Shown here: positions 7,208 through 12,261 of the stretch, piece after piece
Position numbering within the stretch: position 1 is the stretch's first letter
How the letters are laid out: the number at the start of each line of letters is the position of its first letter
Source: Poseidonibacter parvus
GTDB taxonomy: Bacteria > Campylobacterota > Campylobacteria > Campylobacterales > Arcobacteraceae
DNA length: 64,000 nt
Direction: 5' to 3'
Assembly: GCF_001956695.1 (NCBI RefSeq)
Contig: NZ_CP019070.1
Span: forward strand, 806,001 to 870,000
Made by a program: the position numbers and the translations under genes
The notes under the pieces: generated by a model
Databases searched by the model: none
Told to the model about the DNA's origin: nothing
What the model saw: only the letters and a program-made list of their open reading frames with translations

Positions 7208-8209
7208 ATGATAAAAAGAGAGTTTTTACAAGATCACAAAAGTTTAGATTTTAAGTTTTACCAAAATGTTGATGATTTTATTGTTGAAGAAGTTCCTATT
7301 AAATTTGCTGGTCGTGGTAACTTTATAATTGCAAAAATAAAAAAGCAAAAGCTTGGAACTTGGGATTTAATAGAAAGTTTAGCAAAGGGTTTACGAATAT
7401 ATGACAATGAATTAGGATATGCAGGACTTAAAGATAAAAATGCGACTACAACTCAATATATTTCAATTCCTAAAAAATATTCAAAAGATTTAAAGCAATT
7501 TAGACACAATAAAATTAAAATATTAGAAACAACACTTCATGGATCTAAACTAAATATTGGTGATTTAATTGGAAATAAGTTTGAAATAAATTTACATGAA
7601 GTTCAAGCTCAAGATGTTGGAAAAATTGAAAAACTTTTAAAGCAAATTTCAAAAGTCGGAATGCCAAATTATTTTGGTTTCCAGAGATTTGGTTATGATG
7701 GCTTAGAAAACTTAGAAAAAGCTAGAAAGTATATTTATGAAGACTACCAAATAAAAGATAGAAAAATATCAAAAATGCTTGTAGCTGCTTATCAAAGTGA
7801 TTTTTTTAATAAATGGTTAGTAGAAAGACTTAAACAATCAGATGATAGTTTTAAAGCCATGGATGGTGATGTATTTAGAGATTATAGAGAAGATAAATTC
7901 TTTACTCCTAAAAACTTCACAGAGATAATGCAAAAAGATTTTGAAGATAAAAAAATAGTACCAACAGGATTATTGCCTGGTCAAAAAGCATTTAGAAGTA
8001 TTAAGGATGCTAGAAAAATTGAAGAAATGTTTGATGATACTTATATCAAAGAAAAAGGTTACAGACGTGATGCAATAGTATATCCAAGTGATATTTCTGT
8101 AAGTTTCGATAAAAATACTAATAAATGTAAAGTTAAATTTACATTACCAAAAGCTTCTTATGCAACTGTTTTAATTGAAAACATTGCAAACAGAAACTTA
8201 AAAGCTTAA
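7208..8209 (+). CDS. truD: tRNA pseudouridine(13) synthase TruD
   Basis: Isomerises U13 of tRNA(Glu) to pseudouridine. 333 residues, close to the E. coli protein. The signature YAGLKDKNATTTQ with the catalytic Asp (residue 76) is intact, and the family motifs NYFGFQRFG and LPG(Q)KAFRS are present. The start follows a good -10 box, though the ribosome binding site is weak. The gene is alone in its transcription unit and convergent with the thioredoxin-like gene, sharing a hairpin terminator. Confidence 0.95.
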   Translation: MIKREFLQDHKSLDFKFYQNVDDFIVEEVPIKFAGRGNFIIAKIKKQKLGTWDLIESLAKGLRIYDNELGYAGLKDKNATTTQYISIPKKYSKDLKQFRHNKIKILETTLHGSKLNIGDLIGNKFEINLHEVQAQDVGKIEKLLKQISKVGMPNYFGFQRFGYDGLENLEKARKYIYEDYQIKDRKISKMLVAAYQSDFFNKWLVERLKQSDDSFKAMDGDVFRDYREDKFFTPKNFTEIMQKDFEDKKIVPTGLLPGQKAFRSIKDARKIEEMFDDTYIKEKGYRRDAIVYPSDISVSFDKNTNKCKVKFTLPKASYATVLIENIANRNLKA

Positions 8210-8223
8210 TATTAATAGGTGAT

Positions 8224-8253
8224 ATTTTAGTAAGTATGATTACTTACTAAAAT
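8224..8253. terminator. Bidirectional hairpin terminator, truD / thioredoxin-like gene
   Basis: Perfect 13-bp inverted repeat (8224-8236 with 8241-8253) with loop TGAT, between convergent genes. The stop codon of the minus-strand gene (8240-8242) lies at its centre. Confidence 0.7.
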
Positions 8254-8605
8254 AGACTTTCTCATAATTTTCTAATTGCTCAACACTTTTAACACCAAGT
8301 TTTTTAGCAACAATTTTTCCATTTTCCATATAAACTAAAGTTGGAATACCTTTAATTTCAAATTGTGCTGTAAGAAGTTTTTGATCTTCTATGTTTAACT
8401 TATAAATTTCTACGTTATCTTGTTTTCTTGTATTATATTTTGTCAAGTTTTTACCTAAAACCTTACAAGATGGTCACCAAGTTGCATAAAAATCAATAAT
8501 TACATTTTTGTTTTCAAGTTTACTTTCTATATTTGCAAGAGTTAAATGCTCAAATGCAAAAAGTGAGTTAAAACCTAAAAATAAAATAGCTATTAACTTT
8601 TTCAT
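8240..8605 (-). CDS. Periplasmic thioredoxin-like selenoprotein (UGA = selenocysteine 44)
   Basis: Read through the in-frame TGA at 8474-8476, this is a complete 121-residue thioredoxin-fold protein. It starts at ATG 8605 behind AGGA. A signal peptide (KKLIAILFLGFNSLFA) comes first, then IIDFYATW-U-PSCK, where U replaces the first Cys of the usual WCxxC active site, then the conserved cis-proline loop GIPTLVY and a normal C-terminus. Only the UGA interrupts the frame; the sequence on both sides is coding and in register. A SECIS-like hairpin follows directly. A conventional annotation would give a 68-residue fragment from TTG 8446, without active site or signal peptide. Likely a periplasmic thiol oxidoreductase. 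Alternative: a pseudogene with a point mutation at this Cys. Confidence 0.85.
8440..8468 (-). promoter_or_regulatory. Bacterial SECIS element downstream of the UGA codon
   Basis: On the minus strand, bases 6-34 after the UGA fold into a 12-pair stem (11 bp plus one A-G mismatch; one G-U pair) with 5-nt apical loop AGGUA. The loop GGU falls at bases 19-21 after the UGA. In E. coli fdhF the AGGU of the SelB-binding loop is at the same distance. The hairpin lies within the coding sequence, as bacterial SECIS elements do. Confidence 0.8.
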
Positions 8606-8756
8606 TTTATGTATCCTTTTTTAAATTTTTCTATTATAGTTTTTGAATGTGTAGTTTTTGTTTAGAAAATTAAAATAAGACATTTTTTATCTTGTTTTAT
8701 ATGTGTTTTTGATATCTTATTTTAAAATTAATATATTATTAAAATAAAGAGAAAAA

Positions 8757-10211
8757 ATGAAATTAAATGACTTAAAAGTTAATATGGAATATTTCCATAT
8801 GGATGATAATTTATACCAAAAATTAGATGCAACACCTTTAAAAAATCCAAAGCTTATTTCCTACAATAAGCAAGCATGTGATTTAATAAATTTAGATTAT
8901 AAAGAGTGTGAAACAAAAGATTTTTTAGACTTTATGAATGGTAGTAAAGTCCTAAAAAATTCTCAACCCTTTTCAATGGTTTATGCAGGTCATCAATTTG
9001 GATACTTTGTACCACAATTAGGTGATGGAAGAGCAATAAATCTAGGAGCTATAAATAAGTGGCAACTACAAACAAAAGGTTCAGGGCTTACTAAATATTC
9101 AAGAAGAGGTGATGGCCGTGCAGTTTTAAGATCATCTATTAGAGAATATATAATCAGTGAAGCAATGCATGCTTTAAAGATACCAACTACCAGAGCTTTA
9201 GCAATAATTGATTCAGAGACTTTTGCACATAGAGAATGGGAAAAAGAATCCTGCTCAATAGTTTTAAGAATGTCTCCTTCTTGGATTAGAATAGGTACAT
9301 TTGAGTTTTTTGCAAATACAAAAAACTCTAAAGAAAATCTTAGAAAGCTTGCAGATTTAGTTATTGAAGAATCATATGTTCACTTAAAAGATGAGAAAAA
9401 TAAATATGAAAAGATGTTTTATTCACTTGTTGATAAAACAGCTTTAATGATAGCTTACTGGCAAAGCTATGGTTTTATGCATGGAGTTATGAATACAGAT
9501 AATTTTTCAATGGCAGGTCTTACTATTGATTATGGTCCCTTTGCTTTTATGGATTATTTTGATAAAAATTGTATTTGTAATCACACAGATGCTGAAGGAC
9601 GATATTCTTACAATAATCAACCATATGTTGCAAGATGGAACTTAATTGTATTAGCAAATGCATTAAAAGAAATTTGTGATGAAGAAAAACTTTTAGAGTA
9701 TATAAATACTTTTATTCCTCAACATGAAAACGTTTATTTAGAGCAAATGAATAAAAGAATAGGGCTTGATGCAGTAAAAAGTGGCGATAATAATTTAGAT
9801 TTAATACTTGAATTATTAGGTGCATTAGAGAGTTCAAAAATGGATTATAATGTATTCTTTTATGAACTTACAAAAATCAAATCTTTTGATGAAATTAGTT
9901 TAATTACAAATTTATGTGTATTTAGACAGCCTTTAGAAGATTGGTTTAAATCATATGAAAAAGTTTGTCAAAACCAAAATAGTAGTTTTACTAAAAGAGT
10001 TGAAATTATGAAAAAAGTAAATCCAAAATATATAATCAAAAACTATATGCTTCAAGAAGCAATAGAATTAGCTCACGAAGGTGATTATTCTCTTGTAAAC
10101 GATTTACTTAATATTGCACAAAACTCATTTGATGAGCATGAAAAGTTTGAAAACTATTCAAAACCAACTCCAATGGAATATGCAAATGTGAAGCTTTCTT
10201 GTTCTTCATAA
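8757..10211 (+). CDS. selO: SelO/YdiU-family protein adenylyltransferase
   Basis: Pseudokinase-fold enzyme that transfers AMP from ATP to hydroxyl side chains of target proteins, including redox proteins, in the studied family members. 484 residues. Motifs: PFSMVYAGHQFG, QLGDGRAINLG, QTKGSGLTKYSRRGDGRAV, HGVMNTDN (242-249) and DYGPFAF (258-264). The protein ends in CSS, with Cys482 at the position occupied by selenocysteine in vertebrate SelO, so this is the Cys form. It is divergent from the thioredoxin-like selenoprotein gene, with about 150 bases between the starts. AAAGAGAAAA precedes the ATG. Confidence 0.94.
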   Translation: MKLNDLKVNMEYFHMDDNLYQKLDATPLKNPKLISYNKQACDLINLDYKECETKDFLDFMNGSKVLKNSQPFSMVYAGHQFGYFVPQLGDGRAINLGAINKWQLQTKGSGLTKYSRRGDGRAVLRSSIREYIISEAMHALKIPTTRALAIIDSETFAHREWEKESCSIVLRMSPSWIRIGTFEFFANTKNSKENLRKLADLVIEESYVHLKDEKNKYEKMFYSLVDKTALMIAYWQSYGFMHGVMNTDNFSMAGLTIDYGPFAFMDYFDKNCICNHTDAEGRYSYNNQPYVARWNLIVLANALKEICDEEKLLEYINTFIPQHENVYLEQMNKRIGLDAVKSGDNNLDLILELLGALESSKMDYNVFFYELTKIKSFDEISLITNLCVFRQPLEDWFKSYEKVCQNQNSSFTKRVEIMKKVNPKYIIKNYMLQEAIELAHEGDYSLVNDLLNIAQNSFDEHEKFENYSKPTPMEYANVKLSCSS

Positions 10212-10282: not shown

Positions 10283-11530
10283 ATGAAAAAAGATATATAT
10301 GAAAAAATGGACATTTTAGCAAATAGTGCAAAATATGATGTTTCATGCTCTTCTAGTGGTAGTGATAACAATTACAAAACGGGAGAACTTGGAGCTACTC
10401 ATAATAGTGGGATTTGTCATACTTTTACAGCCGATGGAAGATGTGTTTCTTTATTAAAGGTTTTACTAACAAATTATTGTATCTATGATTGTTCTTATTG
10501 TGTAAATAGAACTTCAAATAGTGATATTCCAAGAGCTGCTTTTAGTCCTAGAGAATTAGCTGACATTACAATTAATTTTTATAAAAGAAACTATATTGAA
10601 GGACTTTTTTTAAGTTCAGGAATTATAAGTAGTGAAGACCATACTATGGTTATGATTCTTCGGACTTTAAAAATTCTTCGACATGAGTATAAATTTAATG
10701 GTTATATTCATGTTAAACTAATTCCAGGTTCTTCAAATGAATTAACAGAACAAATAGTAAATCTTGCAAATAGAGTAAGCTCAAATATAGAGCTTCCTAG
10801 TGATAAATCTTTAAAACTATTAGCTCCAAATAAAACTAAAAAAAGTGTATTACAACCTTTAAAATTTGCAAGAGATGTAAGTATGGAAAAGGGTAAAAAA
10901 CCAATTGGAATGAGTACACAATTAATTGTAGGCGCAACACCAGAAAGTGATAAAGATATACTAAAACTAAGCTCAGCTTTATATGATAAAGCCTTACTAA
11001 AAAGAGTATATTATAGTGCTTATATTCCTGTAAATGATAATAATAAAAACCTTCCTTCAACAATTACAAAACCACCACTTGTAAGAGAACATAGACTTTA
11101 TCAAGCCGATTGGTTACTTAGGTTTTATGATTTTTCTTACGATGAAATTGTAAATGATGATAATCCAAATTTAGATGAAGAACTAGACCCTAAAACTTTT
11201 TGGGCTTTAAATAATATGTCTTATTTTCCAATGGAAATAAATGCAGTCTCAAAAGAAGAGCTTTTAAGAATTCCAGGTATTGGAGCAAGAGGTGTACAAA
11301 AAATAATAAATGCTAGAAGATTTAAAAGTCTTGATTTCGAGGATTTAAAAAAGTTAAAAATATCTTTAAAAAGAGCCAAGTATTTTATAACTTGCAAAGG
11401 AAAATATCAAAAAGAAGTACCTTTTTATAAAGATGTAATAAAAACAGCAATAATTGAACCCAAAAAGAAAAAGATAATAACTCCTAACTTGTTTGACTTA
11501 GCTTATAGTAATATTACTGGTGAGTTATGA
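10283..11530 (+). CDS. Radical SAM protein, putative DNA modification/repair
   Basis: 415 residues. A radical SAM cluster motif CxxxCxxC is at Cys66, Cys70 and Cys73 (NYCIYDCSYC). A conserved N-terminal stretch (SGSDNNYKTGELGATHNSG, GICHTFTADGRC) follows the family pattern of proteins annotated as putative DNA modification/repair radical SAM protein. The C-terminus has a helix-hairpin-helix (LLRIPGIGARGVQKIINAR) that fits DNA binding. Its stop overlaps the next gene's start (ATGA). In many bacteria these two genes are adjacent and uncharacterised. The reaction is unknown; the HhH and the known linkage support a nucleic-acid substrate. Confidence 0.88.
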   Translation: MKKDIYEKMDILANSAKYDVSCSSSGSDNNYKTGELGATHNSGICHTFTADGRCVSLLKVLLTNYCIYDCSYCVNRTSNSDIPRAAFSPRELADITINFYKRNYIEGLFLSSGIISSEDHTMVMILRTLKILRHEYKFNGYIHVKLIPGSSNELTEQIVNLANRVSSNIELPSDKSLKLLAPNKTKKSVLQPLKFARDVSMEKGKKPIGMSTQLIVGATPESDKDILKLSSALYDKALLKRVYYSAYIPVNDNNKNLPSTITKPPLVREHRLYQADWLLRFYDFSYDEIVNDDNPNLDEELDPKTFWALNNMSYFPMEINAVSKEELLRIPGIGARGVQKIINARRFKSLDFEDLKKLKISLKRAKYFITCKGKYQKEVPFYKDVIKTAIIEPKKKKIITPNLFDLAYSNITGEL

Positions 11531-12261
11531 TATTAGTTTATGATAAAAGTTTTGAAGGCTTTTTAACTCTAGTTTTTAAAGTTTATTATGAAAAGTTAAA
11601 ACCAATTAGAATATTAAAAGAAATGCCAAATGAGCTTTTTTTAGATGATTTTATAGTTATTGAAAACAATGAAGAACACTCACAAAAAGTTTTAGATGCC
11701 TTAAAGAAAAAGTTTTCAAAAGATAATTTTCAAAGGATCTTAAATATTTTTATGTGTGATTCAAAAGATTTTGAACTTGATTTATTAAACTATATAATTA
11801 TAGGTTTTAAAAACCAAAAAGAGCTTGCAAATATTAATAATTCTTCACTTTTTAATATTTTAAATATTGAAAAGGAGCTATTTAGACATATACATAAAAT
11901 GGAAGGGTTTTTAAGATTTGAAGAGCTTGACGATGGAACTTTATATGCAAAAATGCAAACAAAATTTAATGTTGCATATTTTTTAGGAAAGCACTTTTTT
12001 AAAAGATTAAATAATCAAAAATATATAATTCATGATATAAATAGAAAAATAGCATTTATAAAAAACGATGATTTTTTAGGAATTCAAAATATTGCAAGTT
12101 ATGAAGAACCAAAACTTTCAGAAGATGAAGAAAAGTTCAAAAAACTTTGGAGTCAGTTTTTTAAATCTGTATCAATTGAAAGTAAAAAAAATGATAGATG
12201 CCAAAAAAATCAAGTGCCACTACTTTATAGAACTTATATGAGTGAGTTTTATAAAAGATAA
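11527..12261 (+). CDS. Partner of the radical SAM protein, probable DNA metabolism protein
   Basis: 244 residues. It begins ILVYDKSFEGFLTLVFKVYYEK, the typical opening of the family annotated as probable DNA metabolism protein that is encoded beside the radical SAM partner. In some species this domain is fused to a uracil-DNA-glycosylase-like domain; here that domain is absent, since the protein is of the short form. MEGFLRFEEL and a C-terminal RCQKNQVPLLYRTYMSEF are seen. The 4-base overlap with the upstream gene indicates translational coupling and stoichiometric production. Function is not known. It ends at a shared terminator. Confidence 0.82.
   Translation: MILVYDKSFEGFLTLVFKVYYEKLKPIRILKEMPNELFLDDFIVIENNEEHSQKVLDALKKKFSKDNFQRILNIFMCDSKDFELDLLNYIIIGFKNQKELANINNSSLFNILNIEKELFRHIHKMEGFLRFEELDDGTLYAKMQTKFNVAYFLGKHFFKRLNNQKYIIHDINRKIAFIKNDDFLGIQNIASYEEPKLSEDEEKFKKLWSQFFKSVSIESKKNDRCQKNQVPLLYRTYMSEFYKR

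Follow-up and report, generated by a model that had tools for sequence, protein, structure and literature searches.

A predicted selenocysteine-containing thioredoxin in Poseidonibacter parvus, its SECIS hairpin and the Sec/Cys history of its family

Selenocysteine (Sec) is at home in the thioredoxin fold: in the available text of PMC13188914, thioredoxins (PF00085) with a UxxC motif are entered in Table 1 as an experimentally verified selenoprotein family. The thioredoxin-like gene described here is a further case of it. It has in common with the family, as far as that text describes it, the PF00085 fold, Sec as the first residue of UxxC and the presence of Cys homologues. It differs in three respects. 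The protein falls below the cut-off of TIGR01068, the NCBIfam equivalog for canonical thioredoxin (84.9 vs 96.8 bits); its N-terminus looks like a signal peptide (MKK, a hydrophobic stretch and LFA, kept in 10 aligned homologues and judged on sequence features only); and among its homologues the x-x residues of UxxC vary widely (PS, GS, YA, PA, GA, FA, SA, HS). For the RNA signal that accompanies the codon, the classical reference is fdhF of Escherichia coli. A 45-nt stretch, 100% identical to fdhF in the E. coli records listed, has GGT at bases 19–21 after the TGA. The hairpin that we describe is alike in being a stem-loop placed right after the UGA with GGU at 19–21, and here the first-pass annotation, which had claimed the same register as in fdhF, was correct. 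It is unlike fdhF in its A/U-rich stem and its five-base loop AGGUA, the fdhF loop being AGGUCU.

A SECIS model made for epsilonproteobacteria (Cravedi et al., 2015; PMC4607533) has, in the text available, an apical hairpin of 5/6 bp and an invariant loop G, both of which the present hairpin shares. That text also has a single annotated Sec thioredoxin for the epsilonproteobacteria, of a species left unnamed; its Arcobacter sequences are Cys homologues of a thiol peroxidase, not the gene studied here. The available text of the open-licence literature on selenoproteins of Arcobacter and Campylobacterota gave us no account of this gene, although it may be listed in the supplementary tables of PMC4607533. 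Finally, a 2006 survey (PMC1794560) describes SECIS remnants left after a Sec-to-Cys change in FdhA and in HesB-like proteins. In its available text such changes mostly concern FdhA and SelD, and none is tabulated for thioredoxin.

The gene occupies positions 8240–8605 on the minus strand of the window, by which we mean the whole stretch of 64,000 nucleotides analysed. With its TGA read through, it would comprise 121 codons followed by TAA, the signal-peptide-like N-terminus of its product being MKKLIAILFLGFNSLFA. The frame opens with the ATG at 8605, closes with the TAA at 8242–8240 and contains a single in-frame UGA. This is codon 44 (8474–8476, minus strand), set in the motif A-T-W-U-P-S-C and predicted to specify Sec from the reading of the frame and from the UGA or Cys that homologues have there. 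The PF00085 domain scores well over the Pfam cut-off (E 1.5e-20; 73.6 vs 23.5 bits). The PDB entries matched by sequence are thioredoxins, as are the best PDB matches of a structure model with a mean pLDDT of 70. An annotation that took the UGA for a stop would end the protein at residue 43.

Base n after the UGA is window position 8474 minus n. Bases 6–34, that is 8468–8440 on the minus strand, are predicted from folding and from comparison with homologues to form a SECIS hairpin of 11 pairs, one of them G-U, with one A.G mismatch and the loop AGGUA at 8456–8452. The first-pass annotation had proposed a hairpin with AGGUA as its loop and a single mismatch, and refolding returned it at exactly the same coordinates, 8440–8468. 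The GGU of the apical loop (8453–8455, bases 19–21) is, from its register, what we take to be the SelB contact. The two strands of the window contain 2587 TGA trinucleotides. The UGA at 8476–8474 is the only one of them with the seven inner pairs and GGT in register behind it, whereas 18 are followed by just the five apical pairs. The folding energy is not significant, with an MFE z of -0.5 to -1.7 against shuffles. When the peptide was held fixed and its codons redrawn, 11.6% of 200,000 recodings kept the seven inner pairs and GGT and 3.0% kept all eleven pairs and GGU; 8% of 3,000 synonymous recodings that were folded did as well as the natural hairpin. An Rfam scan of the whole window gave zero matches. 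In one sequence alone, then, the hairpin is suggestive evidence for a SECIS. Because the single-sequence fold is weak and the peptide by itself makes a hairpin fairly likely, it is the comparative evidence that decides. The earlier interpretation is supported by the comparison, but its ground that a coincidence of codon, active site and hairpin is unlikely was overstated for the hairpin alone, as the recodings tell.

Within the family, 101 of 104 genomes match the protein at E 1e-10. Among the matches listed, at least 22 genes in at least 20 of the 104 genomes carry one TGA at the same site, and this UGA is the only in-frame stop within the matched region of each. The comparison covers the UGA genes and those Cys homologues that score about 69 bits or more. 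Once rows sharing the same DNA near the codon had been collapsed, this gave 83 distinct homologues, with UGA at the site in 21 and Cys in 62; the Cys rows include three thioredoxins of cytosolic type (L011–L013) and the distant L076. The UGA aligns with the first Cys of CxxC.

Hairpin and codon go together in this sample. The five apical pairs are in register in 20 of the 21 Sec rows vs 10 of the 62 Cys rows, and the same pairs together with G20 in 18/21 vs 1/62. The loop G at base 19 is present in all 21 Sec rows and the full GGU in 19, the two without G20 (L046 and L059) having GAG in the loop instead. No orthologue was found to keep UGA and lose the stem, an outcome which the first-pass annotation had held to be damaging: L048, the one Sec row that has only three of these pairs in register, forms its hairpin at a shifted position. 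The rest of the stem is looser. Of the 19 distinct Sec rows, 6 have a non-standard 15–31 pair, and the lower stem is almost missing in the window register in L055 and L056.

Covariation was assessed on 19 of the 21 Sec rows, two being left out as repeats over the 45 bases. Across these rows 91.9% of cells pair. Three apical pairs vary on both sides (GC/AU/GU, UA/CG and UA/CG), which makes 18 cells vs a shuffle mean of 7.2, a value reached in 0 of 500 shuffles with kinship ignored. The covariation score, also with kinship ignored, is 0.293, vs 0.188 +/- 0.020 in shuffles; slid structures score no higher than 0.190. Other measures are less telling: the number of pairs varying on both sides, three, is not above shuffles (382/500 reach it), the further pair types, seven, are below them, and RNAalifold unaided recovers just the five apical pairs. 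Compensatory changes, which the earlier annotation had suggested looking for among orthologues, are thus present in the stem. Codon usage tells a similar tale. Six same-genus orthologues were compared with the window gene; in five of them all ten SECIS codons are identical to it, with 51/74 to 64/79 (69–81%) of the other conserved-residue codons identical, and in the sixth (L046) the figures are 6/7 and 42/61.

Across the phylum, 31 of 397 genomes have a match at E 1e-20, and of these a single one, G418, lies outside the family, in another family of the same order. Its gene has W-U-H-S-C with UGA, the same loop and the full inner stem, and two of the four outer pairs fail. A covariance model, R1, was built from these SECIS elements. 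In the P. parvus genome it gives the window copy 68.9 bits and the next hit 17.9, and its scan of that genome missed the hairpin of selD described below; only the window copy being clear there, R1 is family-specific and no general SECIS finder. A wider contig scan was swamped by ordinary thioredoxins: among its best 80 loci, only L147 and L194 look family-like by identity and E-value.

The genome carries the genes of the Sec machinery. On contig C1, selB (1121905–1123716), selA (1123746–1125062) and a tRNA-Sec with anticodon TCA (1125127–1125223) adjoin one another. At C1:1127127–1128047, selD (L120) has an in-frame TGA of its own, after which comes a hairpin whose loop is GGG, and its product is, on this evidence, probably a selenoprotein too. 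SelB scores over the cut-off in 70 of the 104 family genomes: in 19 of the 20 for which a UGA gene is among the matches listed vs 51 of the 84 others (Fisher p 0.003, kinship ignored). The UGA-bearing genome with no SelB over the cut-off, G096, is 86% complete.

The UGA, the hairpin and its register, the Sec and Cys homologues, the compensatory changes, the purifying selection after the UGA (see below) and the complete sel set, all of them features of sequence, point the same way: the hairpin is very probably a bacterial SECIS that directs Sec to residue 44. SelB with its Sec-tRNA would bind the apical loop while the ribosome stands at the UGA (8476–8474), and Sec would enter at the N-terminal, nucleophilic position of U-x-x-C. 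The 121-residue protein would be secreted via its N-terminal signal peptide and act as a selenol-based disulfide reductase in the periplasm, where DsbD, present once in this genome, would most likely keep it reduced. We regard this periplasmic role as reasonably likely, because of the signal-peptide-like N-terminus, the single DsbD and the situation in G087 and G088, where dsbD directly follows the Sec-thioredoxin gene in the same orientation and an inverted repeat separates the two (Pfam assignment on the G087 protein). As judged by comparison, the SECIS and the selenoprotein gene are very probably real; the mechanism would be an ordinary one and it is the Sec/Cys history that is instructive.

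The neighbourhood of the gene lends itself to a different view of function, in which the protein is a real selenoprotein that works specifically with SelO, or in a single respiratory pathway, rather than in general periplasmic reduction. A gene for a SelO/YdiU-type protein (8757–10211, plus strand) diverges from the thioredoxin gene, the region 8606–8756 separating the two start codons. This SelO ends in ...KLSCSS; it has Cys there, and its gene is free of in-frame UGA. Bacterial SelO proteins with Sec forms are reported in the available text of PMC12013277. The Sec clade has 26 loci, 23 with Sec and 3 read as reverted. At 11 of them, in three genera, SelO is the divergent neighbour, the relatives being L017–L021, L031, L046, L056, L059 and L060, vs none of 56 other loci, the flanks of which are shorter, mostly 0.7–1 kb vs 1.5 kb. 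A Sec-clade thioredoxin and a short SelO occur together in 15 genomes, of which 11 have the divergent pair; SelO itself is found in 84 of the 104 family genomes. For a respiratory link there is L042 (G041), with napD two genes from the Sec-thioredoxin on the opposite strand. Yet seven of the 11 SelO-adjacent loci belong to one genus, so that common ancestry may explain the adjacency, and the thioredoxin looks exported whereas SelO, to our knowledge, is not periplasmic in bacteria. Such a dedicated partnership is therefore unlikely to be the right account, and general periplasmic reduction is preferred. More speculative again, and in our opinion quite improbable, is the idea that the selenothioredoxin–SelO pair is a unit coupling selenium redox state to AMPylation, in a lineage that would toggle between Sec and Cys by one-base changes with the SECIS ready for a return. 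The surroundings show some other features. In G092 (L046) a second, tandem thioredoxin (W-C-D-I-C) sits between the Sec-thioredoxin and SelO. The convergent neighbour at 7208–8209 (plus strand), which we take to be a truD-like gene, adjoins the thioredoxin gene in 7 loci. Further on, a gene at 10283–12261, presumably radical-SAM-like, shares four bases with the beginning of the gene that follows; we assume that the two are a known pair of DNA-related proteins.

Doing without Sec altogether fares worse. Were the UGA a true stop, the frame would be what is left of a decayed thioredoxin gene, or would encode a peptide of 43 residues, the hairpin being a by-product of the peptide sequence. The weak MFE z and the 3% of synonymous recodings that keep the 11 pairs and GGU fit such a peptide, SECIS-compatible anyway. 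But dN/dS against five same-genus orthologues is 0.21–0.41 after the UGA, close to the 0.19–0.27 before it, and the downstream part is therefore kept as protein; recurrence of the same UGA in the genes and genomes counted above, lack of any other in-frame stop in the matched region of the UGA homologues listed and compensatory changes in the stem likewise make a true stop highly improbable. Least credible of all is SelB-independent decoding of the UGA as Trp or some other standard amino acid, which has nothing specific in its favour and against it the aligned residue of the homologues, Cys and not Trp, the tRNA-Sec, SelA, SelB and SelD of the genome, and a hairpin that tracks the UGA rows and not the Cys rows. 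A change of genetic code and a pseudogene were both rejected on the evidence against these two readings.

Sec insertion being the preferred reading, the family can be followed through its exchanges of Sec and Cys. A tree was made of 83 rows (23 Sec, 60 Cys) over 119 columns with the active-site residue masked; it omits L011–L013 and the short loci L022–L045 that repeat fetched ones, adds G418, and leaves many forks unresolved. On it Sec and Cys change four times (4–5 in bootstraps vs 20 with shuffled labels). From where the Cys rows sit in the tree, we infer one gain of Sec and three returns to Cys. The returned rows would be L018 (in G093), L010 (a second copy in the P. parvus genome) and L117, from a genome (G075) that is 61% complete and has no SelB over the cut-off.

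L018 has TGT, as sequenced, at the codon, and the next 42 bases are identical to those of the window gene. It resembles the remnants in the available text of PMC1794560 in having a Cys codon followed by a SECIS, but all 42 bases are unchanged. Outside the SECIS, 64 of 79 conserved-residue codons are identical to the window gene; with this background, ten identical SECIS codons would arise by chance in about 1/8 of cases, so that the intact SECIS of L018 favours a recent change over upkeep. In L010 most of the apical stem and the GGU are gone; its upstream neighbour, presumably an adk-like gene, is common to L048, which has UGA.

The family looks like a compact natural series of related, probably exported thioredoxins, running from Sec, through Cys with an untouched SECIS, to Cys with a decayed one, and in the genomes of some of them the Sec machinery is still present. 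Owing to this series, what a thioredoxin gains from Sec and what it pays for it could be tested in similar backgrounds. In G093, L018 has Cys and the second copy, L049, has UGA; in the P. parvus genome the order is reversed, the second copy (L010) being the one with Cys.
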